From NCBI GenBank assembly GCA_015501595.1, contig JADNRX010000026.1, forward strand, positions 186,001 to 250,000: a stretch of DNA of 64,000 nt, written 5' to 3'. Under the pieces are notes generated by a model. That model was not told where the DNA came from and made no database searches. It worked only from the letters and a program-made list of their open reading frames with translations. Below are positions 11,811-63,697 of the stretch, piece by piece. The stretch's first letter is position 1. Every line of letters begins with the position of its first letter. Origin of the DNA: Hymenopellis radicata (taxonomy: Eukaryota > Basidiomycota > Agaricomycetes > Agaricales > Physalacriaceae). The position numbers and the translations under genes were made by a program.

Positions 11811-11848
11811 ATTGCGAAATAAATTTCCATCTAACGACTCATACGATT

Positions 11849-15313: not shown

Positions 15314-15345
15314 GTCGTGTGGATAGCGATATGTCTTCTGAACAT

Positions 15346-18449: not shown

Positions 18450-18486
18450 TTGATATCATCTTCCGACTCATTTATTAGCCATTTTT

Positions 18487-28100: not shown

Positions 28101-28344
28101 TACAGTCAACATCTTTGACACCCTCCGCGCGCTACCGGATTACAACCCTATCCTCAAAGCAGCGGTCGATATTCGTATTCGGTCAAATATTGACCTACGC
28201 GTCGTACACATCTCTGGCGAACTGAACACCGTAGCGGACGCCCTCTCTCGCGACTACCTTGACGTCGCGCAGTCTCTCGTGCCGAACTTATACATCGACA
28301 CATTTAAACCCCCTCGACTTACGCTGGGGGCAACACAAAAATGA
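25178..28344 (+). pseudogene. Ngaro-2 reverse transcriptase-RNase H, interrupted by hAT-like A
   Basis: Frame +1 relative to Gag, open before and after the insertion. Motif A (WKADVMGAF) lies at about 25960, then element A at 26153-27306, then LCCYVDD at about 27350 and the RNase H residues FCDAS, FWEAL, FTDNT and ADALSRD up to the stop at 28342-28344. How translation reaches this frame is unclear: a +1 shift within the overlap or re-initiation. Copies 1 and 2 carry element A at the identical site. Confidence 0.78.
26153..27306. mobile_element. hAT-like element A, copy 2
   Basis: Same site, same TSD (GTCGTGTG, 26145-26152 and 27307-27314) and nearly the same sequence as copy 1, differing mainly by homopolymer lengths. 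It was therefore present before the Ngaro-loaded Y element was duplicated. Confidence 0.77.
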
Positions 28345-30442: not shown

Positions 30443-30935
30443 TTGATATCATCTTCCGACTCATTTATTAGCCATTTTTACGAACATCAATCATACTCGC
30501 GGCCGCCGCGGTGGCGGTCGGCTTTTTGGCTACCGTGTCCCCCGACAGGTTCATCAGATTGGTCGAGATTAATCTTTTGATTACTCAAGGCCAATATGAG
30601 GTACGCCATTTCGCTTTCCATGCTCACAGCATCCTCACCAACAGTACTCATTACAGATCCTTCGGATCTAAAATGCTGTACTTATGGTTCGTTACCCACC
30701 GGGTCGCAAAATGAACCAGGTGAGACTCTTCTGCCTTCGGGACGTTATCCTCGCTTACAGCGAGACTTTGACGTGGTCAGCTCTCAGCGCCACATCTTTC
30801 TCTTAGGTCGATCGTTGATTTCCATACCTGGCGGGCAGCTTAGGTATGCAGCCGAGGATGTCTCCATACTCGCGGCCGCCGCGGTGGCGGTCGGCTTTTT
30901 GGCTACCGTGTCCCCCGACAGGTTCATCAGATTGG

Positions 30936-33456
30936 CTGCCATGACATGACACGACGCGTTCGCCGCCGTGAATACACTCTGTCTTGATCATGTAGCCTCT
31001 ATCCCTGAAGCTTCTAGCCTTCCTTGCTAGATCCGACGCCGACTCATTAGCATTGCTTGGACATGAATGCTTGCCTCTGTCATGTCGGACACTGCCCTCT
31101 GCCCTCTTTCGTGCCCTTGATTTGTATATTGGATTCCTATATGGCGGAGACATTGCCCTTTATTCAAGGACTATGGCGGACTCCATCTTGGGCGCCGGAA
31201 CCATGTTACACAGATCACTGTCTACGAGTCGACACCGTCCCAGTCAGCATTGTATCCTCTCTGAACAATTCAAGAAAAATGACCGCACCCTCTCTGCACC
31301 TCGTACTTGATTCCCTCTCCCATGCATGCTCATTCTTCATAGTATCGCACAGGACCTTAATCCTCAAATTTTCGCCGTTTTCCCGCTTTAGACGTTCCGC
31401 TGTCGTCGCCCATGTCACGGAGAAGGAGCTGACGACGACCCAATGAGCACCACGCACGCGTAAGCTTCCGAGATGGAGCAGCCACGCCTGTGGATGACGA
31501 CGCCGGCTTCACAATGCTGGATTATCCCTGGCCCGTCACACCTACGTTGGAAGGTGGCATGAAGAGCACAAGAGAGGGCTCAGAACGAGCTGCATTGTGC
31601 TGCCAGCACAGGTGCATCTTTCATTCTCTCTTTTCCTCCTCTCTCACGCTACCGAAGGCCATACCGCATTCATGAGGCCTCGAGTGCCGTCTGTTCGAAA
31701 CGGCGGCGTCTATTTCCTGCCGTTTCGTCCTCGTGCTCATCATTGTCTTTCCTTGCATTCCCATCGCTGTTCGGTCCTCGAGTTGTCTTCAAACAGCCGT
31801 GGATATGACGGTTGACTTTTCTTTCGCTCTGACGGCGAGCAAAGGACGCACGCGTCAGCCTCCAGGACGGAGCAGCAGCATTTTTCAACGCCGGCTCGGC
31901 TTTTAAGAGGCTGGACGAGCCTCAGCAAGGATTCGACAATGTTTGCGCCATCACCACGGCAATGGGATGCGTAAGCCCAGTGCGACTCTCCAAACACAAC
32001 GGAGACGACGTCGACCAACAACGCGTAGGCCCCGATGAGGCAGCGTACGACTCAGGGACTCGACGCTGCTGTCTTCACGGCAACGGGACGCGTCAGCGCA
32101 AGGACCAGTGCCTTCGGTACCCAGCTGAGTAATATACTTCCTTCCTTCCTTCCACACCGACACCCTCTGCAATCTGCAACAACAAATCTCGAATCAGTGT
32201 GCGGTTCGCTACCGGTTCGTACGTGTCTGCTTCGAATGTGTTTCTTTCCCGCAACAAATGCTTTCTCATTTTCATTTCGTTAGCCTTCCACCATCGGGTA
32301 AGCCCTTCAACAAGGCACCACAACGATTCTGCAGTGACCAGACGGGTAACCCCGACGTAGCTACCTGACTTCGCCGATGACGAGGACCACGACGCGTAAG
32401 CCCCGGCCACAGCGTCCTCTCCCAGATAAGCCGCCGTCGTTATATCCCTCATCAACGTCGTGTGTAACATAACTGTCAATGCCAAGGGCCGTTGAGAGGT
32501 ACATGATATCCAGGATACACCCGACCACATCATTCACGGTAATATCTGCGACTCGTTCCCGCGCCCTTCATACTGAATGCAGACATCACCGCATGCTTCA
32601 AGATGGCCTGCCTGTACCGTATGAGCGGGAGACTTCTCCGGACACTGTAGTGCAGTCTCGGCTAGGCCGATTTTGCACGGTGGTGTGGCGGGGCTCGGTA
32701 GTGGACAAGCGTGAGCACCCCATCTTTCGCGAGTATGATCAGCTTGTTCGATGATCCCCAGACGTTCTGAAATGGTGTGTAGCCATCAATGTTGTGAGGA
32801 GGACATGAGCGGGCTGAGTGTGTTATCTCCGAGTCCAACACAAATGATTGGACATAACAGCGACCATGCTGAGAAAACTGTTGGTGTTTTCGGGAGAGCT
32901 TCAACATTTCATGCTCCTGATACCGTGAGTACTATTGAGTTCCCGTTTCTAGTACTCCGTGTTTTGTAACGCTGAGCGGGATGTTGGTTGGTGTCGCTGC
33001 CCAGGCCCCAGAGGACCTTGAAAACGCGCGATGGCGCTGGTGGAATGAAACGGTCGACAGCTGAGCCCGAGTGACACGGTGCGCGCCTATGCGCGCAGCA
33101 GTAGATGGAGATATGTCAGTCTCGTTAATGCACTATTAATCTGACATTCGTTGAATACCTATTATGAAATATGATCTGTTGTTTGAATAATCGCGACACA
33201 TTTGCTGTTCAGAACAATTCTAGAGGGTGACGTGACCAAAAGCGGCAAGTCCTCCGGCGACTTGCCGTTGCTCCCGGACATAATTTCCGCTCTTGCGTCT
33301 TACTTTCTTCACCTGGGCGAAGTGGAATCGTGCTTTAGTAAAGTGGGGTCACACTTTGCCAAAGTGAAATCAAAATATTGTGAAGTGAGCTAGGAACAGG
33401 CCTGAAAAAAGTGGAAAGTGCAGGAAATTGAATTTTTAGACAGTATATTGCCCATA
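30936..33456. other. Y2 core, right part, no recognisable gene
   Basis: Copy of 19472-21993 with scattered single-base differences. It ends in the AAAGTG-rich subterminal region and the right TIR of Y2. Confidence 0.55.
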
Positions 33457-44751: not shown

Positions 44752-45239
44752 CTTCGTGCTTCGGAACTTGTCGCAGCAACGACAGCAGCAGAGTCGGTGA
44801 TGCTCTCTCATTTTTCGCAGGCAAGTTTTCGACTGTGCAGACCGGTCGACGGTGATCACAAGTCGTTTCGCTCGACTGGGACGAGGATATTTCGGAAGAC
44901 ATTAGAGTGTTGTTCACTCAGGAGAACTTTGATTGCGAGGCAGACAACGGGAAGTAACTGGGAGATTGATGTTTTTCGTGAGGTCAGCTTACGTGTTGTG
45001 GCGCACTGAAGATTACTAAATCTAGTTTAAACTTAAGTGTCTAAGTACTTAGGTACAAAGGATGCAGCCCAAAAGAGTGGTGTGACAATTGTGAATCTAC
45101 AGGAAAGGAAAACTGATACTGGTTGAAGAAGTGGGACTCCGAAGTAGAACTGTACCACTTTTCATTTTGGCTCAAAAGTCGTAGTGAAAGTTATACTAAA
45201 AGTGAGAATACTTCATAGTAGTAGTAAAACAGTCAACTT
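44752..45239. other. X1 right segment
   Basis: Matches the reverse complement of 60227-60714 in X2. It ends with AAAGTG/CACTTT subterminal motifs (about 45130-45225) and is then cut by Y3 at the TSD CAACTT (45234-45239). The last 27 bases of X1 lie beyond Y3 at 60034-60060. Confidence 0.6.
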
Positions 45240-45937
45240 TTTGGTGGTATCCTTGTCGAATAATTCAGCGTAGCACTTGGCATAAATCACACTTTTTTAC
45301 ACTCACTTTTATTGGATTATTTTCACTTTTGAGGGAAGTGCGTAGCTCACTTAATAAAGTGAGCACTGCACTTTCCTAAGCGTGTTCCCACTTCTCCCAG
45401 TGAGCAGTTGCTGTCCCGGGTCCTGACCTGAGAGGCGGGTTAGGGCGGGCAAGGCCGCCACGAGCTGTGACGGTGACAGTGAGATAATACGCACGTGGAG
45501 GCTGTCTGTTGTGGCGTTAGACGCCGTCTTCCTCATTATGCTGTCAAACCGCTGCATCGGCTGCATTGCTACAGGCGTGTATACAAATAACAAGCTGTGT
45601 TTGTATATCAGACAAAGAGAGACAGGACAATGGCGGTCTGCCTCTGAGAGAACAGGTGTAAGTGTAAGCTTTCCTGCATGACTCTGTCGAAAATAAACTT
45701 ACAACCTTACGGCAGTCCGAATAATTACGCGCGTCCACGTTGAGGTATCACCGCCTACTGTTTTTCTTATTCTCATTACTCAGAAATAACATCTTGTCTG
45801 CACTATACCTTGAACACCGGCATACAACTATATCAGCATTGAGCCGTTGCTTTATTTATGCACTCTGTTTGTCCCTCAGCCTCAAAAATATGTATTTAAG
45901 CCCGCTTTCTCTCCCTGCCTCCATCATCTACTCCTTC
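45240..45937. other. Y3 left terminal region
   Basis: TIR, then at least seven CACTTT/AAAGTG-type motifs to about 45420, then non-coding DNA. A TATTTAA box at about 45893-45899 precedes the ATG of the next gene by about 40 bp. Confidence 0.55.
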
Positions 45938-48900
45938 ATGATGCCTCTCTTCGACCTCACCCTTCTTGGAGGCTGTAACAAGCCCAACTGCCCTCAAGCA
46001 TGCGGATTTGCCTTTGTCAACGACAAAACACCAGAGAACTATCTACCAACGGATCCTTGTGGCGTTTGCGGCTGTCCAATCGGTGCTCATATTCGGCGGG
46101 TAAGATTAACTGTTTTACTTCAGCCTAACAGTAGTCAACTGAGCTTAACATTTAGGCGCCCGAACAACCAAAAGTCGACACGGAGGCCAAGGGTCAGCAG
46201 TCTCAGTCACCTCCCTCAACGGAAGCGCGTCAGGTATAGTTACACCTTATTCATCTCAAGACTCCTCTGATCAGTATGCTACTAGAAAACCCAATCGAAC
46301 AAGGTTGACAGCACTGCATTTGCAGGCACTACACGGGACAGTCTATTTGCCTCACGTCCGGGAGGCGATCAGGATCCAAAACCCGCACATCATCCACCGG
46401 GCGCCTGGAAGAAAGCGCCGCCCACTGAGGCCTTTCGAGACGCGTCAAAAGCTCGGAACGATAAGCGCCACAAGGCGGCTGTCAGTCAAGGACTTGGCGG
46501 GGCCTTGAAGTTTGACCCCTCTGAGAAGGTATGAAGTTCTTCTTTGCACATCCTAATGCCGTATTTGAACGCCTTGTAGATTATCGTGGATAAACTCGCG
46601 AACAAGACAGGTCGTCCAGGACCCAAGAAGAAACCTGCAGAGGAAGAAGACACCAGACCTAGGATCGTGACAGTAATCCTGATTCCGGAAACACAAGCCG
46701 CTCATCGTGAGGAGGTTCGCCGCCCTTCTCGGCAGAGGTATTTGTCTTTCCCTCAAGTTGTCAACATAATTTGTAACCTTTAAACTTAGGTTTGAGATCC
46801 TTCAGCGCCCAGGAAACGACTACGTTCGGGAAGTTCAGATCAACGTCACTGACCTGGACAATGCAGATGCCTTCACTGCTGCCGTGTACGAAAAGTTTGC
46901 CAAGGTCTGGCCCGCCGAACATTCTACAAATCCCAAGGAGCTTTTCCACACCATGGATGTCATACAGCCCGAAAGTCGAGGCATGGCATCAATGTTGATG
47001 GTCAACACTTGGGTTCAGGATGACAGAGCTTGCTTTCGAACGATTCGAGGGTAAGTCGTCTCATCTAGAATATGATTCTCAACTAACAACTTCAATACAG
47101 ATCAAACTCGCGCCACCATCCATCTAGCATGAACGATAAAGAGGTCAAGTGCCCGGTCTACATCTGTTTGATAGAGGCGCACAAAGACCTCCCGGTTACA
47201 GAGCCTAAACTCTCTGCCCCGAAGAACAACAGTTCTTCGTCGAAAAAGGTCATTATTCAGTTGTTTTTCAAGTCATAAGCTTACCTCTTCATAGTCAAAA
47301 GACGCGTCGAGCTTCAAAGAGACTAAACATCAGGAGAAGACCACAGAGCCGGCCTCTGTCTCCGAAGATGAGTTGAAAAAGCCTTCCTCTCCGCAGACCA
47401 GAAGTACCTCAAAAGTAAGCTGTTTATCGTCTGGCTATGAATATCGACTTACTGTGCCTTAGCGCAAGGCCACGGAGCCCCTTCGTGAGTCTAAGCCGAA
47501 GCGCCAAAGGAACCAGACTATTGAGATCTCGGACGATGAGGATGTTGAGATGAAGTCCTCTGAGGACACATTCCACGCTCACAAGGCATGTTCAAGTGCC
47601 TCCACTGCTAGTCAAAATCTAACCTCATTCAACATAGGTTTTATCCATCCCTCAGTCCGTCTTAGTCGCAAAAAGACTGGCAGCCAATACTGGATCCTTG
47701 GCGGACCGTCCTTCCCATTCCGCCGGTTACGCGGGATGCGGTCAATGGGTTAGTATACCTGTTGATCTCTCAAACCTTTTTCTTATTCCTCATTGATAGT
47801 CGACATTGATTCTGTCCTCGCCCTACGACCTTCTCTCGAACGTGGTTGGTCACTCTAATGCGCTGCTGTCCAATCTGCGGAATACGTCTCTGGGCACGGA
47901 TGCCGATTTGGCGGCAGAGCTGTTGTACAGCTATCGCCCTCAGACTGAGGCCTTCGCACACTTTACGGAGCTCGCTGCATGGCTGGATAGTGCACCTCTC
48001 GGCTACGACTACCAGCCGGAGCAGAACCCTGCCTTTGTGAAAAAGTTCAAGTTGGGTCCACATGGAATGACCTTAGCGATCGAGGCCCTCTTATCCCTTT
48101 CCGCCCTCGTTCAACAAATATCATCAAAGCCCGGCCTCTCAATCAATGCGTACGAGGAACTTCGCACTGTTCATGAAGAACTTACCGATTTCGGGGAGGC
48201 TGTTACACGACTATTCCAATTCTTCTTCAAAACGGTGGAGCCTCGTTTCTGGTACCCAAAGACAGGTCTTCGACAGTTGGAGGCTGTTATCGCTCTTAAC
48301 CGACCTCTGTTGGAGGAACACGCGGTTCGTTGTATTTTTAACAGTATTTGTTATAGCTAATACTGAAATGTAGCCTGGCGCTGCTCCTCTATCCTCCATA
48401 CACCAAGGCCTTTCGAGGTTACGCAGTCTGCTCCGGGAAGATGGTACTACTGAAGACATCCTTCGCGCTCATATTCGCACCTGCTTTGGCCACGCTGAGG
48501 ATCCTGCGTACATGGAGATCAGCCTTATTTCGCGAGGGCCGTTCGGCCTGGATCTTCTGATTGAAACGATTCGGGAATACGTGCAGGACCGGGAGATCCA
48601 CTGCAACTACGACGGGTGTTTAGCAGTGCTTGGAAAGCTGGCTCTAGCTGTGGCTTGGAAGACGTTCCAGTTTTTATCGGTACGAGAACTGAATACTTTG
48701 TCTCCTTCATCCTCTCACTGTTCTTCCAGAGACCCAAACACTACAATCAACCATCTAAGCGCGAAGACTGGAAAAGAAACCCCGCGTTCGTGTTACCTCC
48801 TACTATCACACCTTCATGGACTCACTTGTTTCCTCAGCACTGGAAATGACCAACCGGCGGGGAGCGAATTCGATGAAGGTGCGCTCTTTGTCATGACCTC

Positions 48901-49399
48901 TTGCACATTCATGGAACTGCATTCTTAGATCTACCGCCTGCTCCGGACTCTCCAGACTCTGAATGGTACACGGATCTCATTATCCCAGACATCTCTTGTC
49001 GTCCAGCTTTCAGCTTCCAACCCGAACACTCTAGCTTCACGCCAGGACCACAACAACAACAGGCCTTTGTTGCAGTAGATCCTCGCCTGGAGAAAGCTGC
49101 CGCGTTCGCTCAGGAGAAACTGTCCTGGACATCACTTCTGAACCGGCTGCGCACAGAATTTCCTCACCCCCTCCTATCTATCCGAAAACGTTTCGAGGAT
49201 CAGATTAAGGGAGAGCCGGATCGCAGAAAGCAGTATTTAGCAGCTCAATTGGTAAGTCTCCCAAGGGATTCTGTCTTAAAGAAGTCTATTGACAATTCCA
49301 TAGGCGTATCATCCTGACAAGAATCGAGTTGCTGGAGAAATTTGGGTTCAAATCGTCACACAATTGAACTGTGCTATCAATAAGGCCTATGGCCAGTAG
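45938..49399 (+). CDS. Multi-exon transposon cargo protein with Cys-rich N-terminus and J-domain-like C-terminus
   Basis: Not recognised by name. It starts MMPLFDLTLLGGC with a Cys cluster (GGCNKPNCPQACGFAF... DPCGVCGCPIGAH) that could bind zinc. There follow a Pro/Lys-rich linker, a block RFEILQRPGNDYVREVQINVT, a Ser-rich linker rewritten over several small exons, and a large helical C-terminal region (about 47800-49240, including FGLDLLIETIREYVQ and PRPKHYNQP...FVLPPTITPSWTHL). The final exon joins AAQL to AYHPDKNRVAG and INKAYGQ, stop 49397-49399. HPDKN with flanking helices is the J-domain signature, so it may recruit an Hsp70. About 15 introns of 40-60 nt splice cleanly, which argues for a functional gene. 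It converges with the dioxygenase gene (stops 71 bp apart). Confidence 0.65.
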
Positions 49400-49470
49400 A
49401 TTCTTGTAACTAGTAACTTTCTTGTGCATTACAATACGTCGAATGGCTTTCAAATTGTTCTACTATATGT

Positions 49471-51360
49471 CTAATATTTGGGAAAGACTCCGTCTTCACC
49501 AAGGAACTTTTCTCCATCCGCGTTACCCGAATGCCCTTTCCTACGCGCAATCTCCAGTGTCTCATGCCCCGTTTCAGACGTCTGAAACATTGACGCCTGA
49601 TTAAACCACACAACGGAACCCCGCCCGTTGCCCGCCTCCCAATCCTCCTCAGACACATCTTCCGGCCGACAAAGGGGTTCTGAATTTTCGGGCGTCGGGC
49701 GCTCTCCATTCGACGTCGTCACGATTTGAATGCCTGTTGAGATGTGAGGAAAAGAAATCACCAAAAGACGATCCAGCGTACGATCGATATTGAAGTGAAA
49801 GAACAGGGAGGAGGGGTAAAGCAAGAAGACCCCGGGTGGGAGCTCCAAGCAGACGCCTGCCTCCCAGATGACAAGCCAAGCCTTCTCACGGAAATTGAAC
49901 ACGCCTGTCAGGTTGTTAGAGGGCGGGTGGGAGAAAGACATTAGCACTAACCGTAAACGAAAACAATGCATATGCCAAGGGCGATGTTCTTGAAATCAAC
50001 GTGGGGGTCACAATGGACGCGCTTCACACCCAGTCGTGGCGCATTCAAGCACCAATTGAAGAAGAGTCCGAATGGGGTGGTGATGCCGTACTCGTCTCTC
50101 ATGTATTCGTGACAGGTCTTATAGCGCCTAGCGATGCCTGGGAAGTGGTCTTCTGCCATGGCGCTTGCAAGCCCACTAAGCCTCCTCAGCCTGGAATTCG
50201 TGCAGGGATACAAATACAGGCTTACTTGAAGAATGCAAAAGCGGTGCCAGGCCTAAAGAAGTGCTTGATGTGGTGTTCGTTATCCTTATGCCATTTTGAA
50301 AACGCAGGGGCCTGGACGAATGTCAGAAACAGGCTCTTGAGTGGAGTTCACCACTTACTGATTTGTTATTGCGGTCCGCCCCCGCTATGCAAAACCAGTG
50401 CGGTCCACGACGGTTAGCGGCCATGTCGTCTTCGGTCATGGGGGTGCAGGCCTTGACAAAAGCCTTGGCCTCCTTGATGAAGTCGTCCAGGCGTTCCCGA
50501 ACGTTGTCCGTAATTTTTGAGCGGTAAATCAGCATGCGGCCTTGCGAATCTAGGAATCGGGTTGCTTTACTAGGAGAACATCAGGAAGACGGCCGTGAAA
50601 TGATGGGGGCGGACTCACTTCAAGTACGGCACCAGAGTGATCCCGGAGAGGTGATGACCAATGCCCTGGGGAGAGGCGTGGGCTGCCCTCATCTGAGCGG
50701 CAGAGTAAGAGGGGAAGTTCGTCCCCATCCACCAGGTGGTTGTAGCAGGTAGGGCCTCTGCCTGAAGATCCTCGGCTTGGAAGGTCTCAGCGTCCTCTTT
50801 CATGCGACGGACGTGATTTTGCTTCCGGCGTTGATTACGATTAGGCTTGTCCTTCGGGTGAGGGGGTAGCGTGGAGGGTCGCGCCCTGGAGAACAGACAT
50901 CAGAGGAGGCCTGCACAGACAGGCCACAGGCCAACGTACTGGTATGAAACCTTGGGAATAGTCTCCTGCTCCTCTATCTTCTGCCTCTTGTTTGGCGGCG
51001 GCCCATATGAGGCGGGAGCTGTCGCCCGCTTCGCGGAGCTCTTACGAGAGGCGGGGCGCATGTGAGACGAAGACGCGCCAGTCTGAGGCGCGCGTGTTTG
51101 ATGAACGGAGTTGAGGAGCTCTCGAATCACGTCGGGGTCGGTGTTGCGTGAGGCAGGATCTTCGTCGACGTGACGGCGGATCACGAGGTCTTCGAGGTCG
51201 ATCACAAGATGGAAAGTTTTGCCATCGTCGTCGCTGGTGAGGGAGGTTCTGAAGCTAGGGGGTCGTCAGGACGTGAGCCGGCGTTAAGTGGGCTGACGCA
51301 CCTTGAGGCGTCAAAGAACCGGGCCACAAACTTCTTGACGGCGAGGCGCGTCAATCGCAT
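49471..51360 (-). CDS. 2-oxoglutarate/Fe(II) dioxygenase, TET/JBP-like
   Basis: Start MRLTRLAVKKFVARFFDAS at 51360; a disordered linker with KRQK follows. The catalytic double-stranded beta-helix is encoded at about 49600-50120: YGITTPFGLFFNWCLN, then RVHCDPHVDFKNIALGICI with the metal-binding H-x-D, then WEAGVCLELPPGVFLLYPSS and a distal His in LFFHFN. Last comes RGSVVWFNQASMF, resembling the Arg-containing C-terminal strand of fungal TET/JBP proteins. It ends GEDGVFPKY, stop 49471-49473. TET/JBP enzymes oxidise 5-methylcytosine or thymine in DNA; large basidiomycete families ride on transposons. About eight short introns; a TATATAAA box lies about 155 bp upstream (51515-51522). The 2OG-dioxygenase fold is fairly secure; TET/JBP membership is a motif-level inference. 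Confidence 0.65.
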
Positions 51361-51514
51361 CTCGAAGAAAGGGAAATGGTTGGTGAGGGCAGCAGGCTGC
51401 TTTGGTACTTGCCGAAGCGTTCCCGGGAGACCTCGCGGGTTTGTCGTCCTAGCACTGCCAGCAACAGCCGTCAGTGCTTACGCTCGGTCTGGGGACAACG
51501 ACGCGGCTCACCTG

Positions 51515-51522
51515 TTTATATA
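51515..51522 (-). promoter_or_regulatory. TATA box of the dioxygenase gene
   Basis: TATATAAA on the minus strand, about 155 bp before the ATG; the only such box in the upstream 250 bp. Confidence 0.4.
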
Positions 51523-51539
51523 GGCCCGGTTAGCAGTCA

Positions 51540-52113
51540 ACAATCGGGCGCCAAACGCGTCCACATGGTGGTCACGGTCGTGGTTCTGGGTCAACAAACA
51601 ATTGTTAGGGGTCAGTGCCTGATTTAGACTTATTTTTGTCTTCTTTCATCCACCACCCATGCCCGTGCTGTTGAAAGACGCAGACTCTGAAAAATGTTGC
51701 AGAATTCGTCGACTGCGAAGCAAGCTGTTGCCTGTTCTCGCGTGAACTGGTGCGTCGCTTCACCGTCGACCTTGTTTTCGAATTGAGCCACATTTTCTAG
51801 GCGCGTCTCCGACAACACAACATTTACAGGCGCAGCTACACCAGACTCGACGGAGGGTTGTCCTTTGTTGAACGACAGGCTCTCTGTCCGATTTGAAACT
51901 CGCGCTCACTCGATTGGAGCAGGTCGAACGGGCTGCCGCCTGTTCTTGCGTGAAATCTTCGGCAGACGACGACAACACCTTGAGGAATACGACGCCGACG
52001 TCATGAAACGGTTACTCACTCACAAGGGAGGACGACAGCCCAAGTAGGCGGAGGCTGGCAAGGCGAGCGGCAGCGGCAGGGGTCACGGCGCACTCCCAAC
52101 CATTGCAGCAAGC
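51540..52113. other. Y3 spacer upstream of the dioxygenase
   Basis: Two short minus-strand frames (51630-51818 and 51760-51978) share the pattern FT(R/Q)EQA(T/A)A, hinting at an old internal duplication of about 150 bp. No gene is supported. Confidence 0.3.
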
Positions 52114-52172
52114 TTTGGGGGTGAGTGGTGGTTATAACCCCAAAGCCACTTGCCTGAATCAGTGGTTATAAC
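52114..52172 (+). repeat. Left arm of a 3.6-kb-spaced inverted repeat
   Basis: TTTGGGGGT, a 6-base gap, TGGTTATAACCC, then TTGCCT and GTGGTTATAAC. The inverted partner is at 55659-55718. Possible ends of an older element nested inside Y3; no TSD was found. Confidence 0.5.
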
Positions 52173-54400
52173 GGGTATGCTCAGTAGGGTTTTGACCCTC
52201 AAATCACGGTTACAACCACTGACACCGGGTTCCACTGACCTACCTGGAAAAACACCCATTCTGGGTGCCTACTATATGCTTTAAAGCCTCAAAGCGGTAT
52301 ATGAGGCTCGTTGAATCTAGTGTGTCCGAATACAGGTATTAGATATTCACGCAGTCGTCCAAATATGGATGTGTTCATCTAAATACGGATGCTTGCTCTA
52401 AAAATAAACCGTTGCGCATAGCGGCGTCGGTGCCCACAAAAGCTGGGTCTGTTCATAGTAGGAAGGAAGTGCGTAGGTCGAGGCCGTCTCGATTTTGAAG
52501 ACGGCGCGTGGAGCACAAATGTGCCCCACGCATACCGCACAACAAAAATGCGACGTAGCTCTCAGCGCGGGGTACAGCAGGGAATGGATTCCGGAGGCTG
52601 GACAGAAATGAAAAATTGGTGGTGCAACTGCTGCGTTGCTGTATTCCTCTGTTGCAGGTGCCTGTCGTTGACTCCAACACGAGCGAGCGACGTAACCATC
52701 GTGCCGCCGTAGAAGGTCCTGAAATATGGTGTCAGGATGTGCGCCTGGGCGTAGAGGTAGCGAAAATAAATTCGAGACCTATAGAGCCCGCTATGAACTG
52801 AATCATGGATGAAAAAAGGGAGAAACACGCACTCGGCACCGAACATATTCTCCCTATTTCCCCGAATGTCGTACCACCGCCCTACACTCTCCGTCGAATG
52901 CCTACTGCCATCGGATGGCGTGTACTCTTGCTGGGCCAGGACGATGAAGAAGGATCGGGGCCTGCTGCCAACAATCGTTCGGGGAATCGAATCGACCTCT
53001 ACTGGTGATGACGGTATGAGGTGGAGACGCGGGGATGCCGGATCCTTGCTGGCTGACGAGCCTGTTGATATCAGACGAACGCGCGGCCCTACGTCATCGA
53101 CGCACGGACCATGGCGTTCGTTACGTTGGCGGATTATGGTGATGGCGGGGATCGTGTCGAAATATAATAATTCCCCCTCCGAGGATTCGAACCTCCAGAG
53201 GCTACCTTTTAGCGAGGGGGACAAATGACGAGACTGTGGGAACCATGGAATCCGGAATCCTTGTCGTCGTCTGCTCCGCGCTGGCAGGGAAGCGGGTCCA
53301 TCGTGATCGTTATTTTTTTTCGTAACATCCAGGATCCTTGGTTGTCGAGGGTTGTCTTCTTGCTACGCCAGCATTGTCGTGTACAAGAATTGTTTTGGGA
53401 ATCAACTCGCCAGGCCAGAAATAGAAATACTAACAGAAAGCCTACGCCAACAGTGAGATACGCCTGGAAAGCAAGAAATGAACGCACTCGATTTGTCGTC
53501 GTCGCCAGCAGACGACATTTCAATACTAGCCCCAGCCCGCGATCTTGAGGCTCCTCAACCACAATGCGCTCGCAGCCCAAAGCATGGCGTAGCTAAAGGG
53601 CACTAGCTTCTGCTTAACGCTAATCCAAAATCGACGTTGTGTGGTCCTAACGAGGGCGTGAGGGCAATCGCGGTCGACGGGAACAGTGGTGGTGGAAAGA
53701 GGATAAGATGAATTGCCGTATTTGGACAACCGCGCGATGCGTTCAGCTCAGCGGCGGCATAAGCGACCATGAGCGTCGTCTCAATGGCGATCGAGAGCGT
53801 CGTCGCAATGACGGGCGAGAGCGTCGTCCAATGTGCGTGGGCAGAAGTCAACGCCTTGAGAGGTCAATACCGATGTCAAGGCGGATTAAGACCACGGAAA
53901 AGAAACGCACCTGGCAACGACAACGACCTCGGACCACCCGTATCTCTCGATCCTTCATAGCGGAAAGCAACGTGAGCCAGAAGCGTCCAGCGTGGTCATG
54001 ACTAGCGTGAGTCAAGACGATGAGATTGTGATGGTGGTCAGAGCCCGCGTTGACGACGCTCTCGGCGGCGGTGCAGACGATCACAGCACACGTCGTTGTA
54101 TGAGGGCCCAGGAGATGTTCCAGGGAGGGCAGGGCAATGGAGATTGAGGCGAGAAATAAGACATTTGACGAGGGAGCGGGTTCTTGACGCTGGCGATGCT
54201 TCAACAACGGAACGACATTTCCAGCGTCTGTATGCGAGTTTACGACTCAGATTAAATAAATTCAATAACGAGAAGAAGGCTACGTACCTTCCGGGTCGAT
54301 CCTGGGCAAGTGTCCCTAAAAGAGGCAAAGAGAGGTAGCACGCAGTGGATGTGCAAAGGTAAGGTGTCCAACATTATAGTGTATCTACCTTGACTTTTGA
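52173..54400. other. Y3 interior, no confident gene
   Basis: Several minus-strand frames between 54328 and 53210 are hydrophobic (for example FLAFQAYLTVGVGFLLVFLFLAWRV near 53450 and SYAMLWAASALWLRSL near 53570) and could be exons of a small membrane protein, but splice joins are not convincing. A 220-codon minus-strand frame (52562-53224) has no recognisable domain. Confidence 0.3.
53172..53221 (-). ncRNA. tRNA-like 3' fragment / box B element
   Basis: On the minus strand an 8-bp stem TCCCCCTC/GAGGGGGA encloses a T-arm-like GGAGG-TTCGAAT-CCTC with an exact box B (GGTTCGAATCC). D and anticodon arms are absent. It is a tRNA remnant or the promoter part of a SINE, not a normal tRNA. Confidence 0.4.
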
Positions 54401-54779
54401 GGTCTTGAGACTTTTATCGGACTTTTACTTTTTGAGCAAGCGGACTGTCAGGTACAAGGCGGGCTTCAATGCCATCTCAAAGTAAGTAAAATTTCCGATA
54501 TATGTCTTGCCGATCCGGGCCCGCCACCCCGAGCGCTGCCCGCCCGACTGATTTTACCGGGTAATGGACTCTTCAGACTTTTATGGGATCAAAATCGTGA
54601 AGCCTCGGAGCAGCCCGATTTTCCTCGCAGCTCAAGTAGAATACATTCGAGTGAAGTTTCATCAACATTCCGAGCCGGGGGAGGCCCGCCGCGCCGCCCA
54701 ATGCTCATTCCATTTTCTGCGCGGATATTGAATAACCGCTATAGCCGGCTCAAAATTAGTTTATTTTTAGACACCAGAT

Positions 54780-55530
54780 GGCTGAGTATCCGTTCCCGCT
54801 CAAATGCACGTCATGTCAGCAGTATCTAAGTTGTAGGGTGTCCCATTCAGCGATTGTCGGGTTGGAAAGCATACAAATGCAGTATCAATCAGATCTAAAC
54901 TTGTATGAGCCTACAGCGCGTACAGCGCTCTCAACGGGGGCGGGAACCAACCCGATCAAGACCAAAAGATGCTGAGTCAACGGTATCCTGCGCGCATCCA
55001 GCGATTAGCGGGCTTAGAAACACATAAATAGGGTATCATTCTGAAGCTATAGAACAGATAGATAAGAAGCTAAATAGAAAAAAGCCGTAGGGCGCGCCGC
55101 TCAAGGGCGGGAGCTGACCCGAAGGCCAGCCACCAATCAGTGTTGCCGAGTTGCCGAAGCACCAGCGCATCCAACGATTTGCGAGCCCAAAAATATACAA
55201 TTAGGGTATCAATGCACAGCTATGACCCAAGGGAGCATGTATGCAAATTTTCAAGAGGATACAGCGCGTACTGCGCGCCCAACGAAGGCGGGAGCGCAAC
55301 CCGCCAAACCCAAACCAGGATGTGCCGAGATGCCGAATCAACGGTATCCGGGCGCATCCAACGATTAGCAGTGGGTAAAAGAGACGATTTTAGTATCAAT
55401 AGAAAGGTACAGGCTCAGAGAGCATGGTGTGATAAGTATTAATTATATATGGCCCGTACAGCGTGCCCAACGGGGGCGGTAAACCCAGCCAGGTAGTCGG
55501 TGATGCCGAGATGCCGATCCAAAAGGGGAT
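54780..55530 (+). repeat. Diverged tandem repeat, period about 170-185 bp
   Basis: About four units sharing GCGCATCCAACGATTAGC, then AGGGTATCAAT, then ACAGCGCGTACTGCGC and a CCAACGGGGGCGGGA stretch. The CATCCA(A/G)CGATT landmark recurs at about 54998, 55171 and 55353, with a degenerate copy near 54850. No coding sequence. Confidence 0.6.
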
Positions 55531-55658
55531 GCCCCGATCACACACCCCAAATCCGTGGTGAACAATAATAAATCAAATACTCTATGAATAATGTTGGAGC
55601 CATAACGGGAGGCCTGCTAGGGTTAGCAGGCAGTGCTAGGGTTACTCTGGACAGAGTG

Positions 55659-55718
55659 GTTATAACCACTTCTGTAGGCAAATGCCATTTGGGTTATAAC
55701 CAGGACTGGACCCCCAAA
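55659..55718 (-). repeat. Right arm of the 3.6-kb-spaced inverted repeat
   Basis: Inverted partner of 52114-52172: GGTTATAACC twice with TTGCC between, ending ACCCCCAAA. Adjacent sequence has GCTAGGGTTAGCAGGC direct and inverted motifs. Confidence 0.5.
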
Positions 55719-55853
55719 AATTACAGCCAGGCCTGGCACTCCACCCGTCAAGTTTTGGGCGTTATGCGAGGGACTTGTATATCAGAAGGGCAAGATCCTT
55801 GTTAGAGCGTTCTCTGTCCCCTTCCCTTTTTTCTCGCTGACTTTTAGCAGGAC

Positions 55854-56084
55854 ATGGATCTCTATGACGATAGTAGAACACTCATATATGCCGGCCCCGT
55901 CGCTCGAAGAATTCGCTCCTCGACATCTGGGTCGACTTGGAACGACTTGACGTTGGCCCTCTTAGACGAGTCGGACTTCAGTACGCATCACGTCTAACCA
56001 TTAACCGACTCAACTAACGTTGCATTAGTACTCATGACTCGGGAAGAAACCGAAGCTAACGGTCTGGCCGCTACAGACCAATAA
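55854..56084 (+). pseudogene. Captured host fragment resembling a fungal RhoGEF PH-domain region
   Basis: Two spliced pieces (55854-55980 and 56029-56084; intron with a CTAAC branch) read RTLIYAGPVARRIRSST, WNDLTLALLD, and then ILMTREETEANG. This resembles the start of the PH domain in fungal Rom-type Rho exchange factors, from memory. An intact acceptor (TTTTAGCAG) lies just before 55851, so these are internal exons taken as genomic DNA. Only about 60 codons; no catalytic domain. Confidence 0.45.
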
Positions 56085-56490
56085 TTTGGGTATTATGGGT
56101 TATATTTTGTGTTGGCTATGGCCTCATGTCGATGCTCGACAGCCATAGTCCGCGTGGGGAGAAGGTGGTTTTCCCGCTGATTGGAAGTCTGGGTTTGGGA
56201 TGTTTGTTCCAGGTGCGAGGATTGTTCTTCGCACACGCGCACGCTGATACGATTTCCCAAGATACCTGTCGTTGCACTGCAAGCCGCGATGCCCTTGAAG
56301 GATACGGCGACTTCGACCTCTGCATTCGGCTTCATCCGTACGCTGGGGGGTACGATAGGTATTTCTGTTGGTCAGGTCGTGTTTTCAAGCGTGCGTGTAC
56401 TTTTTTATTATTGGAATTCCATCTCATCTCGTCCAGACTCTGACACGTCGGGTTGACGATATCCCCGGAGCTGCTGCTGCTTTGTCTGGT
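56047..56490 (+). pseudogene. Captured fragment of an MFS multidrug-type transporter
   Basis: Reading with two introns (56213-56261 and 56391-56436) gives the late part of a DHA-type major facilitator: RYRPIIWVLWVIFCVGYGLM, DSHSPRGEKVVFPLIG, AAMPLKDTATSTSAFGF, IRTLGGTIGISVGQVVFSS, then RRVDDIPGAAAAL. A stop codon (TAA at 56055-56057) lies upstream in frame and the match ends abruptly near 56490. It overlaps the preceding fragment in another frame, a direct join of two unrelated host genes. Confidence 0.6.
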
Positions 56491-56499
56491 GCGCGTCGT

Positions 56500-57300
56500 T
56501 GGCCCAGACCAAGACGCTGACTACGAGGGCGAGAACGACACACCCTCAGACGACGAATACCACTATTCCCTCACATCTTCCTCGGTATCCAGAGATTACG
56601 ACGAATCAAGCACCACCGAACGATTAGGTGAGTTTCAATTATTCTTCGACATACGATTCAGTTTCCTGACGGTAAATTGCAGCTTATCCTGCTGGAATCG
56701 ATGCCTGGCCGGCGAGGCTACGCATGCTGCTGTTCTTCGACGCGCCGTTCTTGTCGGTACCTCTTCCTTACACTCTTCGATATCCAGAGATGTCGAATCA
56801 ACCGCCGCCGAACGATTAGTAAGTTTCAATTATTGGTCGACTTCCAATTCACTTTCTGACTGTAAATCTCAGTTTAGCCTTCTGGGAATCAAAGCCTGAC
56901 CGGCGAGGTCGCCAACGCTGCTCACCTCGGGCGCTATCGGCCTATGCCAATGAGGTGTATTCTTATCTTTGCGGTACTAGCGACTATCAATACGCCGCCG
57001 CCTTACTCTGAGGAACGCGTTCCAGTGTGGATTCTGCTAAACAGGTCAGTGTTTAGTGTCTGCATGCATTCTCAGCCGGACTCCAACTTGACCTTACTAG
57101 GGATAAACACACCAAAGACGATGTTCAAACGCGAAGATGACGACTTGCCGTTCCTGGAGAACCTCCACACGCTCCCGCTAAAAAAGCACAGGCCGTCGCC
57201 CTTCCTCGCGCCCTTCCGCGCGTCGCCGCCCCGCAGGCTATTACCGCTCTCGACCTGTCTGCGTACAACGCCAACACTACAAGTGTCCAGTTTGTGACCG
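56500..57300 (+). other. Y3 region with a 196-bp partial tandem duplication
   Basis: TATCCAGAGAT...GAACGATTAG followed by an intron-like (G)TAAGTTTCAATTATT...CAG segment occurs at 56585 and again at 56781. A spliced reading gives short acidic peptides but no known domain. A Cys pair (YKCPVCDRVQ) is encoded near 57280. Perhaps another captured host exon set. Confidence 0.35.
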
Positions 57301-57690
57301 GGTGCAAGAGAACCCCTGGAAGTCGTCTCAACATGCACGTGCGCGCCCCAGAAACTGACCAGAGGAAGGATGGCGGTCCATGGGCGTCCGTCTCGAGGAT
57401 CTCGACCTGTATAATTAGGGCTCGTGCGAGGACGGTCGGAAGACTATTTTTCGGGACACGGTGAAGGATTTCTGTCTGCTCCTTGTTTATGACCCCCTTA
57501 TGACTTACTGCGTGCCATCTACTCTCGTATTCGTACTCGTTCATCTTCTATCATCTCTTATGTATTCATAATGTCTGTGCGCCGTCCATAATGAACGCCG
57601 TTCTTGCCTCTCAGTCGTCGTGGACGTAAAACTATTTTCATCCTCCAATCTTGCCCACAACCATCTTGAATTAAATTTACTGACGGCGCT

Positions 57691-57969
57691 ATGTCTGACC
57701 GGACAAATGCCGACGAGGCGGGCACAAACGTACAGACAGGCGTCACCCTTACTGTCGAGGCCGTTTTCCAGATCCAGTTCATTCGGGCTAGGTGTGGTCT
57801 CAACATCGAACCAGCTTGAGAAATCTGAGCTGTTTCTAGATCCACCCCCAATAGACGCATTGAACAACTGTGGGAGTCGGTGCAACCGCCACCAGGAGAC
57901 TCAGAGCCTCACGTTGAAGAGCAGACACAGCCGCACGAAGGAGCCTCCTCAGATAGCACTCAACCTTGA
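57691..57969 (+). CDS. Possible small two-exon protein
   Basis: Exons 57691-57791 and 57840-57969 join in frame to a 76-residue acidic protein beginning MSDRTNADEAG and ending SSDSTQP. The intron has a GTGTGG donor, a CTGAG branch-like site and a TAG acceptor. No domain recognised; it may be part of a longer untranslated leader of the integrase gene. Confidence 0.3.
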
Positions 57970-58157
57970 ACACGTTAGTCACCCTTGCTCTGAGAATCAT
58001 AATTTAATTTGACCCCTTCTAGTTCCCCATCCACTCCGGGCCTACGCCAGTACAGTAGAATCTGTGTCGCACTGAGATGTAAATTCTTGTTACTGTAATC
58101 ATTCGGAGATAAGATCGGAGCCATTAAAATCAGTCTTGCTCTTCACCGTCACCCGCC

Positions 58158-59745
58158 ATGGCAGAGCGAGACAATATCCAACAATTTCTATCATACTGCC
58201 ACGGACTATGCAACGAGTCTCGTTTTATCATCACCTCCTTCCCCAATGCAGAGATACCAGCAGTGGAAAAGGTGGCACATCAACTCTATGCCGTTCGAAC
58301 CATTATCCATGGCTTGGACGACCCCTACCTCAGCGAAGCCCAAGTTGAGGCTATGCTAGATCAAGTTGATGACCTCCTGCGGCAGTTGGAGGATTTCCTG
58401 GAGACACCGCCGCCGCCCGTATCCCAAGGCCTGCCTCGCGTTTATACAGGACGCCCTGGGCGCCCTGCCTACCAGTTGGATATGGAGAGGGCGTGCCTGC
58501 TCCATGACTTAGGGAATACATGGGAGGATATAGCTGGGGTCTATGGTGTGAATCGCCAAACCCTTTACAATCATATGGCCCAGCATGGGATTTCACCCGC
58601 ACGAAAAATGTTCACGGATATTCAGGATGAGGAACTCGATGAAGCAGTGGCGGAGATTTCCATGAAGCATCCCTTCATCGGCTCTGCAATCGTTCAAGGC
58701 CATCTGGAAACGATTGGAATCCATCTACCCCGAAAGAGAGTTCAAGAGAGCCTAAGGCGAGTGGATGCCATTGGAGTCCTAACAAGGCGTGTAACACTCT
58801 TATTTCAAGGTGAACGACTGATTGACTGTAGTATAGATGGGCGAATGTTACCAAGCGAAGGGTCTACAAGGTCCGAGGATCCAATGCACTCTGGCATCAA
58901 GATGGGCACGAGAAACTCAAATACTGGGGCTTCTGGGTGCACGGCTGCGTCGATGGACATTCACGCCTAATCGTTTATATGGAGTGTCGATCAAACAAGC
59001 GCGCGGAGACTGTTCGTCAGTGTTTCCTTGCCGGAGTGGCATTATTGGGATGGCCAAGTCGTGTTCGCGGGGACTTTGGGACAGAGAACAACAGCATTGA
59101 GAAGGACATGATTCTGCATTGGGGTGAAGCACACCACGCCTATCTACGAGGACGGTAAGTCATCATCCTGCTTGATGGCAAGGCTAACGGGCTGATAGAT
59201 CAACCCATAATGTTCGGATTGAGCGTCTTTGGGTCGATGTTCAGAAGGACTCGTTAGAGGCCTTTCGGCAGGTCTTTCTCTATATGGAACAGAACGGGCT
59301 GTTTGATAAGGAAAATGCTATCCATTGCCTCTGCATATTCCTAGTCTACCAACCTCGTATCCAGGCCTCCCTGAATCGTGCAAAACATGCGTGGAACCAC
59401 CACAAGATTCGTACCGCTCGCAGCAAGACTCCCATTGCCATGTATGAATTGAGTCGGGAGAAACTCATTATGCTTGGTGTGTGGACTGGGGATGTCGGTG
59501 ATGACATCTCCTGCGTTGATGGATTCTACGGCGTTGAAGGAGCAGAACGTGAAGAGGAGGGCTTGGCTATGCCAAGGGTGGATCCAAATGATCCTAATTC
59601 AGCGCTGGCAGAAGACGAGGACATTGAATCTGCGCGTGAAGCCTTAGGTGATTTTGATTTTGAGGAGGAAGATGACAACTGGGGCATAGATGTTTATTGT
59701 AGAGCTGTAGTTCAACTGCACGCCCATGTCTGTAGTCTTAATTAG
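58158..59745 (+). CDS. Integrase/transposase of Y3 (rve-type D,D,E core with HTH-like N-terminus)
   Basis: Three exons (58158-58790, 58832-59154, 59199-59745) give exactly 500 residues. The N-terminal about 110 residues are helical. An HTH-like DNA-binding region follows (MERACLLHDLGNTWEDIAGVYGVNRQTLYNHM). The catalytic core is NALWHQDGHEKLKYWGFWVH (first Asp), VRGDFGTEN (second Asp), then STHNVRIERLWVDV (Glu), with spacing of the retroviral-integrase fold. The C-terminus is acidic (LGDFDFEEEDDNW). This family of integrase-core proteins is repeated many times in Agaricomycete genomes. Its position beside the right TIR and the 6-bp TSD make it the likely transposase of Y3 and possibly of X, Y1 and Y2. 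No stop or frameshift interrupts it. Confidence 0.85.
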
Positions 59746-60027
59746 GCATCTCAAACTGTTACCTGTGACTGAGTTGATGGCGGGATTCGGGCTACCCTTT
59801 TTGGAGCAGCGGCGATATCTAGGGTTAGGTCCTACCATGGCCTCTTCTCACTTGCGGCTCACAAGGGAAAGTGGAATCTGACTTTACACTGAACCAGGAA
59901 AAGTCATTCCTCACTTTTAGAGAGTGAGAATGTACTTTTCCCGAAATTTTACAAAGTGTAGCAGAAATCCAGGCAAAAGTGAGAAAAGTGAGTGTAATTG
60001 AATTATTAGACAGTATATTGCCGATAC
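59746..60027. other. Y3 right terminal region
   Basis: About ten CACTTT/AAAGTG-like motifs from 59868 to 59995, then the right TIR ending CCGATA. Confidence 0.6.
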
Positions 60028-60060
60028 AACTTGGATTTTTCCCCAGCATTACCCCCATAA

Positions 60061-60196: not shown

Positions 60197-63100
60197 TATG
60201 GGGGTAATGCTGGGGAAAAATCCAAGTTGACTGTTTTACTACTACTATGAAGTATTCTCACTTTTAGTATAACTTTCACTACGACTTTTGAGCCAAAATG
60301 AAAAGTGGTACAGTTCTACTTCGGAGTCCCACTTCTTCAACCAGTATCAGTTTTCCTTTCCTGTAGATTCACAATTGTCACACCACTCTTTTGGGCTGCA
60401 TCCTTTGTACCTAAGTACTTAGACACTTAAGTTTAAACTAGATTTAGTAATCTTCAGTGCGCCACAACACGTAAGCTGACCTCACGAAAAACATCAATCT
60501 CCCAGTTACTTCCCGTTGTCTGCCTCGCAATCAAAGTTCTCCTGAGTGAACAACACTCTAATGTCTTCCAAAATATCCTCGTCCCAGTCGAGCGAAACGA
60601 CTTGTGATCACCGTCGACCGGTCTGCACAGTCGAAAACTTGCCTGCGAAAAATGAGAGAGCATCACCGACTCTGCTGCTGTCGTTGCTGCGACAAGTTCC
60701 GAAGCACGAAGGCCGTCAATCTGCCACTCTGATCAAAATCAAGGTTCGCGTTTGTGCCCGCCTTGAAGGAGACTACGGCCGGACCTGTCATCGAGAGTGC
60801 TGTCCAAAGGCTGTCGTAGAGAGCCTGCAGTGAAGAGCGTTGCTCCTGAGGTTGTGTTCTACCCGAGCCTCCAGGGAGAATGCAATACCTGAGTGCAGTG
60901 GAGGAACCTGTTGTCGAGGCGCCTGTAGTTGAGGAGCGGTCTGTTCCAGCGCCCGTTGATGATACTCTCGCGCCAGTACCTGTCGATGATATTTCTGCTC
61001 CTGCGCCTATTGTTGATATACAGCTCCAGCGGCTCTGGACGAAAAACCAGCACCCGTTGTTGAAGATGTGGTTGAAGAGGAGTACGCACCTGTTGCACTG
61101 CTTGACACACTCCTCTTTCTGATGAAGTCGAGCCTGTGGAGGAATTCCCAATGCGCCCATCGTCCTCGCCACAGAACAAACTGTCCCGCTCGTCCCTAAG
61201 GAGGTTATACCGGCTGTACCAGTAGAAGAGGAGACACCGATTATCCAGGAAGCACCGGTTATTGAAGATACATAGCCCTGCTGTGTCGCTAGCGGACGAC
61301 GTTCTGCGCTTGAAGGGCCCGCTCCGGACCATCCACGTTTACCCGAATGCACTCCATTCAAACATTATGCGTAGACCTGTTATCAACAACCTTTATATTT
61401 GTCAACAGTTTGAGAATAGAAAACACGTACTTCCGCATGTGTATGTGCGATGAGCCTTACCCAAGGTGAAGATCGTGGAGTTCGCAATTTCCGGTCCATA
61501 ATCCCTCGAACGCGACTCCGCCATCCATAGTTCTCCATCCCAGCCAGGAAACACTACGTCAACGTTGCGGCGTCCGCAGTCGTGAACCCACGTAGTTCCC
61601 CAAGTCAATGTCTCCGCCCAGATAGACATGGAGGTCCAAGATGATGTCCAAGCCTACGACGTTGCCCAGGATGAAATGGCTGCGACCAAGCCAGGGGTCG
61701 ACAGAGGCAGAGGCAGAATCAGAGGTCGCCACAGAGACGACGGAACGAGGGCTGTGCTGTTGGATACCGACACCAAGGTGGACGTCGAATATGAATAGCT
61801 ACAGCCCAGTATCGGATGCCCATATCCTTAGTCGTGAGGAAAGATGTTGAGCCTTTGTAGGGAGGGTACCCGAAACCTTTTGCGGACTCAATGTTCACGC
61901 GAAATGCGGAAGAATAAGACATTTATTGCGAAAGAAGGTGGTAAATATCAAGTGAGATGGAAGCAGGCACCCGACCCAGAACCCACACCTGCGAGACGGC
62001 TCAGTCGTGAGGTTGGGAAGGCGAACCCGACAACGCACCATAGAAATGGTGTTGAGCGCTCTGGAGGGCACGTCGAGTCGTCCCAGAACCATCTTAAACA
62101 AAGGAAAGACGAGATCCTGATCTTGATCCGCTGGCCGTATCCGAGAGGAAAAGGTCGATCTGGAAAAGATCAGCAGAAATGAACGATGGTCGGTGCGCAC
62201 CGTGAAGTCAAGCTGGGAGAAATTTCCATGGGGAGCTCTACGATTACATGTCGCGCACGAAGTACCTGGAGGGCCCATTGATGAAAGGCACTGATGGCTT
62301 TGATGACCTGATTGGTGACTTGGATGAGTTCTTCGGAGGGATACCCGAAGGACATGGACACTGACGTGTTACAAACGAGTTTGATGCAGTGGTGTGCGCG
62401 AAAATTCAAACGCTGAGCGCTGCCGCAGGATATCAGAACCAGAGTCGAGAATCGAAAGACATAGAAGGTGGCATTGTGGTTAGTGAAGAGACACAATCTC
62501 TGAAGTACGCGTTAGTCTCTGGACGACGTCAAGAATGGTACCTAAACATGAGACGACTGTCAACTCGGATACGACGAGGATGACAATGTACACAAGACCC
62601 ACTTGGGGAGAAATAGAGAAAAGGCCGCCCTTCAAAGGGTTCTGGTTGTGACTGATGCGCGGGCGAGCCACATGAAGAGCGGCGAGCCGCACGAAGAACG
62701 CTTCGTCCTGAGTGCTGACGATGTCCACGCCACATTTGATTTGAGTATCGATAGAGATCAGAATAGTTTGGAAGATGATGAAGGTAGCGTTGGCCCATAG
62801 AGCGTCGGTCGCCTGGCAGAGGTGCTCGTTGAAGATGGGTGGCAGGCATGCTTAAAGCAAACAGAAAGGTGAGGTTGAAGCTGAAGTGATGCGGGTAGAG
62901 TCCGGCGCGGCAGTGTTCAGGGCAGGCGCCGAGGATGCCAGATCCAGTATGGCTCGAATTCGAGCACTGCTTGGTGATAGAGACGACGATTCTTGAGAGC
63001 TGGAGGGAGGAGCAGCGACTGATGGTTGAGGATGAGGGTTGCGTCGGGGGTAATTGACGGTTACGACGTTCGCGCAGGCCATGAGAAGGGGAGAGACACT

Positions 63101-63697
63101 ATTGTAGGCAGAGGAGGGCCATTCCCTGCTAAAGTCCAGCAGTCACATGGTGGAAGCACAGTGAATGAAAGCCACACACCTTCAACGTTATTCTCCACCA
63201 CCGCCACCACCGACAACGCCCCCAGCGAACAGCGGGGCCGCGGCTTGTGTTGACATGCTTGGTGATGGTGGTAGGTGGCAAGGCGCATTGTCACGCTCTG
63301 TGACGACGTCCGGAAGGTTCGGATGATGAGCACCAGGGCGCGCGCCGCGGGAAGACTTCGACCAGTCGAAGCACGCTTGACGTGTGTGGCGTAGCAGAAT
63401 ATGGTGTAACGTGATCACGTTGAAAAACACGACATAATTGATATTCAAAAATATTGTCTTAATCAAATATCTCTTTTTGGTCAACACGACACGTCGGCCG
63501 TCGGGTCATGTCGACGCGTCGTGTAACGGTCACCAGGAGGAGCGAAAGTCGTACTCGAAAGTGGGACTCACTGCGATTGAGATCAGTCCTACTTTGCACT
63601 TTCTAAAAAGTGAGATTAAAAGTAATACTTTTTGTGAACAAAAGTGACAAAGTAAGAGTAAAATCGCTCTGAATTTTTCCCCAGCATTACCCCCATA
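60197..63697 (-). mobile_element. TIR element X2, uninterrupted copy (inverted)
   Basis: 3501 bp with TIR TATGGGGGTAATGCTGGGGA at each end and CACTTT/AAAGTG subterminal motifs. It provides the empty sites for Y2, the gypsy element and Y3 in X1. Differences from X1 are few (for example an extra C near 61597 and isolated substitutions). It has the same undecided frames: plus 60880-61122 (Pro-Val-Glu/Asp repeat), plus 61844-62182 and minus 60663-61361. No transposase was recognised. Confidence 0.8.

Follow-up and report, generated by a model that had tools for sequence, protein, structure and literature searches.

The question raised by this locus, a 64,000-nucleotide stretch of Hymenopellis radicata DNA (contig JADNRX010000026.1, referred to as a whole as the window), is whether a 14.8-kb segment holding an integrase-type transposase, a TET/JBP-like dioxygenase and a J-domain-like gene is one mobile element, and what the dioxygenase might do within it. 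Our analysis indicates that the segment is probably a large IS3EU-like cut-and-paste transposon of an agaricomycete, in which the transposase gene (I) and its partner (J) are joined by an accessory gene (D) for a TET/JBP-fold enzyme likely to counter silencing by methylation. Judged from its sequence, the element is apparently self-mobile. Genome-wide searches were made in the 75.5-Mb assembly of 1405 contigs, where the window lies in contig C585 and other contigs are cited by C number.

The borders of the element, including both copies of its target site duplication (TSD), and a neighbouring related element were placed as follows.

45240..60026, plus strand: the 14,787-bp element
45234..45239, unstranded: left TSD copy, CAACTT, a 6-mer that recurs on the right and has a single copy in the empty site
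60027..60032, unstranded: right TSD copy, CAACTT, matching the left copy
60197..63697, plus strand: neighbouring element bounded on both sides by TATGGGGGTAATGCTGGGG, its left arm being the empty target of the 14.8-kb element

The element begins with TTTGGTGGTATCC and ends in TATATTGCCGATA, and the same ends recur in other copies. The original prediction, made from the sequence of the window, had proposed a 6-bp TSD with an intact target nearby, and both were confirmed: in addition to the two flanking copies, the joined flanks (346 nt through the left TSD and 27 nt past the right TSD) were found exact and unbroken in the other arm of a palindrome (arms X1 and X2). Because the rejoined flanks are intact in this second arm, insertion of the 14.8-kb element postdates the palindrome. 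Both arms start with TATGGGGGTAATGCTGGGG, the terminal sequence of sister J+I elements in C629, C264 and C1008, and the element is thus nested in the terminus of a relative. The homologous terminal inverted repeats also proposed fared less well, with 16 of the 28 outermost positions identical between the termini; when the outer 90 nt were aligned locally, the top-scoring stretch lay further inward, and as high a score was obtained with 3 among 2000 random window pairs and with 26 among 2000 shuffles. Since the termini resemble each other weakly, the borders rest instead on the TSD, on the empty site and on the finding of the same ends in other copies, and on these grounds they stand. The neighbouring 3.5-kb element is accompanied by a spacer of 137 bp and another inverted terminus, and a clear TSD was not found for it; like the three sister elements, it shows TATGGGGG where the element in question has TTTGG.

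Three genes were read within the borders, together with a shared 5' region of D.

45938..49399, plus strand: gene J, many exons, with an N-terminal Cys-rich motif, a C-terminal HPDKN at 49310-49324 and its stop at 49399
49471..51360, minus strand: gene D, many exons, a TET/JBP-fold 2-oxoglutarate (2OG)-Fe(II) dioxygenase of 515 aa (protein P0001), with HVDFKN (HxD) at 49986-50003
51384..51520, minus strand: 5' region of D, common to the elements in C1235, C796 and C596, where only the first D exons persist
58158-58790, 58832-59154 and 59199-59745, plus strand: exons of gene I, an integrase-type DDE transposase (Pfam rva_4), in the best three-exon reading

Gene I matched rva_4 with an E-value of 1.5e-61 and rve at 5.7e-4, the latter below the cut-off, and its catalytic residues (D235, D292 and E327) form a DD34E triad. 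The expected D,D,E triad was therefore present, while the gene that had been described as uninterrupted is best read with three exons. As had been foreseen, the transposase is of the integrase-core type; a KDZ identity was ruled out, KDZ being absent from the six Pfam families that I matched at an E-value of up to 1. The many-exon gene ending in HPDKN was also recovered as J, the C-terminal region of which reads ...AYHPDKN...INKAYGQ. The match of J to Pfam DnaJ was below the cut-off (E 0.061), with the AYHPDKN motif present, and its predicted structure was poor (a pLDDT confidence score of 35.9 from 3 sequences). A J homologue search that scored 8000 candidates returned three proteins, all from Hymenopellis radicata, and protein P0052 was 89% identical to J across the whole query.

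Both ends were seen for seven copies of the element, and six of these had a perfect 6-bp TSD. Two contained J, D and I, two contained J and I with a D remnant, and three contained none of the genes. The copies other than the one described above were the following.

C484, 3432-14242: all three genes in the order J-D-I; no TSD, altered left end
C865, 2092-10117: J and I with a D remnant, TSD GGCGAG; an internal deletion cuts D and leaves its C-terminal end
C1235, 11288-19274: J and I with a D remnant, TSD AGAGGA; N-terminal D exons between J and I
Window 11178..21993, plus strand: B1, non-autonomous with the same ends, TSD CAATCA; no match to J, D or I
Window 23169..33456, plus strand: B2, non-autonomous with the same ends, TSD CGTCAA; no match to J, D or I
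C1007, 2,912 bp: none of the three genes, TSD CGCTTC

The left end TTTGG was observed in the window element, C865, C1235, B1, B2 and C1007 and was altered in C484, while the right end (TATCGG or TATGGG) fits a TA-type terminus. A genome-wide end search tolerating up to 3 mismatches located 6 left ends (window, B1, B2, C865, C1007 and C907, for the last of which no partner end was seen), together with 10 right ends; the C484 left end and the C1235 ends were too changed for detection. B1 corresponds to the C1007 element with approximately 8 kb inserted after position 226, and B2 is a rearranged near-copy of B1. Open reading frames (ORFs) of B1 gave weak matches to a reverse-transcriptase thumb (E 0.001) and a phage integrase (E 0.061), both below the Pfam cut-off, and because the 8 kb is absent from C1007 a retroelement may have been carried along in B1. 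The original prediction had held that copies with the same ends but without the genes would speak against it; such copies do occur, and they are read here as deletion derivatives and non-autonomous copies. Its expectation that the three genes recur together in TSD-flanked copies was borne out in part, with J, D and I together in the window element and in C484, the latter without a TSD, and with the J and I pair recurring at most J loci. Separately, two element ends were observed back to back in C674 (L033 7545-7552), exactly 6 bp (CCGACG) apart, as though the TSD of one element had served as the insertion site of another.

The core of the element family is the pair of J and I. I was found downstream of J on the same strand at 15 of 17 J loci, at a distance of 1.5-10.4 kb between the compared coordinates; at the other two, the C1237 match lies about 2.3 kb from the contig start and C545 showed no I match. 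The region is rich in nested repeats, and three unrelated insertions might by chance mimic a single 14.8-kb unit. We consider this scarcely credible and rejected it, as the J-D-I order is repeated in C484, J and I occur with the same kind of ends and with TSDs in C865 and C1235, the J-I pair recurs at most J loci, and D remnants or junctions are present in C865, C1235, C796, C596 and C335. The proposal of one mobile unit with an integrase-core transposase and a dioxygenase is accordingly supported by the rva_4 match, the fold of D, the recurrent J and I pair and the three-gene copies.

The dioxygenase gene also agreed with what had been proposed, as a many-exon gene on the minus strand (P0001 is 99% identical to our gene model over 90%) and, by structure comparison, as a TET/JBP-like enzyme, with a modelled double-stranded beta-helix of the TET/JBP type. 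The metal-binding triad of P0001 comprises H371, D373 and H424, of which the first two are conserved in at least 90%, and the third in all, of 45 aligned sequences (45 of 51 homologues, leaving out P0023, P0027, P0033, P0043, P0045 and P0051), and the motif PHVDFKN (HxD, not HxE) was found in P0001-P0005 and P0008. No Pfam family was matched by P0001, none of the 45 homologues matched Tet_JBP at E up to 0.1, and PDB sequence searches with D and its profile gave unrelated matches only, without reaching CcTET of Coprinopsis cinerea (PDB 7vpn, 7w5p, 8jkk), with which D shares 10-13% identity. In the comparison of models, the predicted fold of D was closest to that of 5-methylcytosine (5mC) oxidases. 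This argues against the alternative that D acts on another substrate, such as N6-methyladenine (6mA), thymine or RNA, and so not against cytosine methylation, an alternative that we regard as unlikely but worth serious attention. TET/JBP relatives do act on several substrates (Kojima 2025, PMC12730594, cited here and below from part of its text): CcTET acts on 6mA and 5mC, CMD1 makes 5-glyceryl-methylcytosine (5gmC), and JBP hydroxylates thymine. In addition, Asp337 of CcTET, at a position where the AG type of Agaricomycetes has Asp, is said there to be essential for 5mC, and its position would correspond in D to Cys382, as placed by gap-free counting from the HxD His (+11 residues) and not by structural alignment.

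The original prediction had treated the dioxygenase as an integral gene, and this was not upheld: D is accessory to J+I elements. It was intact at two J+I loci, persisted as remnants in C865, C1235, C796 and C596 (two collinear pieces in C1235 and in C596, the first exon only in C796), and was not found in the three sister elements; C445 likewise gave no D match, and C863, C956, C752 and C852 were covered by the genome-wide D search only, which scored 76 of 107 candidates. The remnants indicate that the ancestor of at least two sub-lineages already carried D, which was then repeatedly lost or truncated. A further intact D (P0002) was observed in C335, adjoining the final 35 nt of J (195 nt aligned at 87% identity); tblastn gave no match to J or I in the surrounding 20 kb, and this locus is either a piece of a J-D-I-type element or a D that has moved. 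Strong D matches were found in 20 contigs. TET-carrying KDZ transposons of Agaricomycetes were reportedly described by Iyer et al. in 2014. None of the 20 contigs had D within 20 kb of a KDZ match, among the matches listed (part of 166, from 150 of 180 KDZ candidates scored), or of a listed Plavaka match, and we therefore rejected the idea that close D paralogues are usually carried by KDZ or Plavaka elements. In C544, a TET-like gene of more distant kinship, with a weak Tet_JBP match (E 0.013), was observed near a KDZ match (82218, with KDZ at 78346).

Selection on the genes was gauged by the ratio of nonsynonymous to synonymous substitution rates (dN/dS), by a method that discards stretches below 50% local identity and thereby lowers dN. 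Under this method, D of the window and of C484 differed with dN 0.017 and dS 0.174 (ratio 0.10, 450 of 515 codons), two comparisons with the C335 D gave 0.09 and 0.08 with dS above 1, and three pairs among three J copies gave 0.12, 0.12 and 0.06 (662-744 of 914 codons); the comparison of J with C674 was saturated. No stop was observed among the compared codons. Both D and J thus show the signature of purifying selection, with dN/dS about 0.1 among the compared copies. Such constraint bears on a second alternative, in which D would be a passenger from other mobile elements or the host, caught by chance in one J+I sub-lineage and of no benefit to it. Several observations agree with a passenger: in most contigs with a strong D match neither J nor a close I was found nearby, D is deleted in C865 and decayed in C1235, C796 and C596, the element holds other pieces apparently captured from the host, and the C335 D looks constrained outside any recognisable J+I element. 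Even so, the low dN and absence of stops between diverged copies make a neutral passenger unlikely, which is the best argument against it, and the remnants in the C1235 group, whose integrases are 70-76% identical, point to an old association. The deletion in C865 is no evidence that the element can move without D, because its order relative to the insertion cannot be told. We consider the passenger improbable, slightly more so than a different substrate.

We therefore return to the anti-silencing role, which is the likeliest for D given its sequence and modelled fold. I would cut at the TTTGG...CCSATA ends and insert the element at 6-bp staggered sites, with J as a putative second protein on which transposition or its control depends. 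D, encoded on the opposite strand between J and I, would most likely oxidise 5mC on the element or on nearby DNA, as suggested by its fold, conserved metal-binding residues and purifying selection, and this oxidation may let the element escape methylation-based silencing.

Several observations weigh against this account. In 18 of the 20 contigs that gave strong D matches, neither J nor a close I was found near D, some of these contigs being short enough that neighbours may be missing. No D match was found in the sister J+I elements of C264 and C1008 (J-I gap 98 bp) or C629 (353 bp), and the element family thus does not need D. The second three-gene copy, in C484, lacks a TSD, is altered at its left end, and is judged a mosaic from its 92.7% identity to the window element in the left part and 99.4% in the right. 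In C865, 0.24 kb is inserted at the edge of I exon 2 and 0.5 kb after I, and all three dN/dS comparisons of I (with C674, C264 and C1235) were saturated. The left end TTTGG departs from the TA of IS3EU (PMC10045372, also cited from part of its text). Lastly, heavy CpG decay was not seen, as the observed/expected CpG ratio of the element was 0.96 (1.08 for the window; 0.76 for the I gene, with TpG at 1.22), ratios that do not measure methylation.

The prediction of a distinct lineage was overtaken by the description in December 2025 of TET-carrying IS3EU elements with 6-bp TSDs in seven Pucciniales species (PU type) and in Tuber indicum (PE type), in which the TET gene always lies between the transposase and an alpha-kinase gene and the termini are TAYGG..CCRTA (PMC12730594). 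IS3EU elements in general, with GingerRoot, have an integrase-core DDE transposase, TA..TA termini and usually a 6-bp TSD (PMC10045372), a TSD length found here in six of the seven two-ended copies; the left end here starts with TT. Our element shares with the TET-carrying IS3EU families the 6-bp TSD, an integrase-type transposase, a TET/JBP gene between transposase and second gene, and a TA-type right terminus. It differs in its agaricomycete host, in a partner gene that is J-like instead of an alpha-kinase and shares its strand with the transposase (a Pfam scan of J and seven interior ORFs gave no alpha-kinase match), and in the HxD of D where PE-type TET/JBP has HxE (PMC12730594). The TET-bearing Kyakuja and Zisupton (KDZ) elements of Agaricomycetes (AG type) likewise carry a TET/JBP gene in mushrooms, with a KDZ transposase instead of an integrase-like one, and the main text of PMC12730594, in the part cited, names only Kyakuja, Zisupton, EnSpm, Plavaka and Helitron2 as TET carriers in Agaricomycotina. 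Our literature search found no other TET-carrying IS3EU in a mushroom, with subscription papers mostly outside the search and Kojima Table S1 a place that could hold one. As far as searched, the element is new in host group and gene make-up and known in kind. It is conceivable, at somewhat short of even chances, that agaricomycete IS3EU-like elements captured a TET/JBP gene independently, in the same slot as in the rusts and the truffle, which would make a third convergent origin, with a D outside all three published types and a J-like gene taking the place of the alpha-kinase. The findings add an integrase-type transposon of mushrooms to the carriers of TET enzymes. Because elements with intact, deleted or decayed D, and sister elements in which none was found, share one transposase family, methylation and activity are comparable between them, a natural experiment within one genome that bears on whether TET-type enzymes protect the transposons carrying them.

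Two further loci with D homologues were observed. In C697 (L051, 33501-36500), a D homologue and an rva_4 integrase of 34% identity lie 9 kb apart, which could reflect an independent dioxygenase-carrying element or chance; no element ends (up to 4 mismatches) were found in the 3 kb around D. C1171 (L043/L044) contains a 3.1-kb duplication, 99.4% identical, with two D-family copies in one contig and no transposase among the 5 ORFs scanned. When 10 ORFs flanking the D copies of C335 and C1171 were scanned against Pfam, one aspartyl protease was the only result.

The remaining part of the element differs among copies.

51600..57209, unstranded: variable interior

Window positions 51600-56505 are replaced by about 1 kb in C484, and 49541-56447 and 56490-57209 are missing in C865. 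Pieces at about 55860-56493, which look like captured host gene fragments, are 93% identical to C518:711366 and C220:11960 (for 56064-56493, to C518:711366-711804). Pfam was silent on these pieces, one of which, read by eye, resembles a membrane transporter. A 59-nt imperfect inverted repeat (76%) at 52114-52172 and 55659-55717 brackets 3.5 kb of this interior and may mark a nested transposon.

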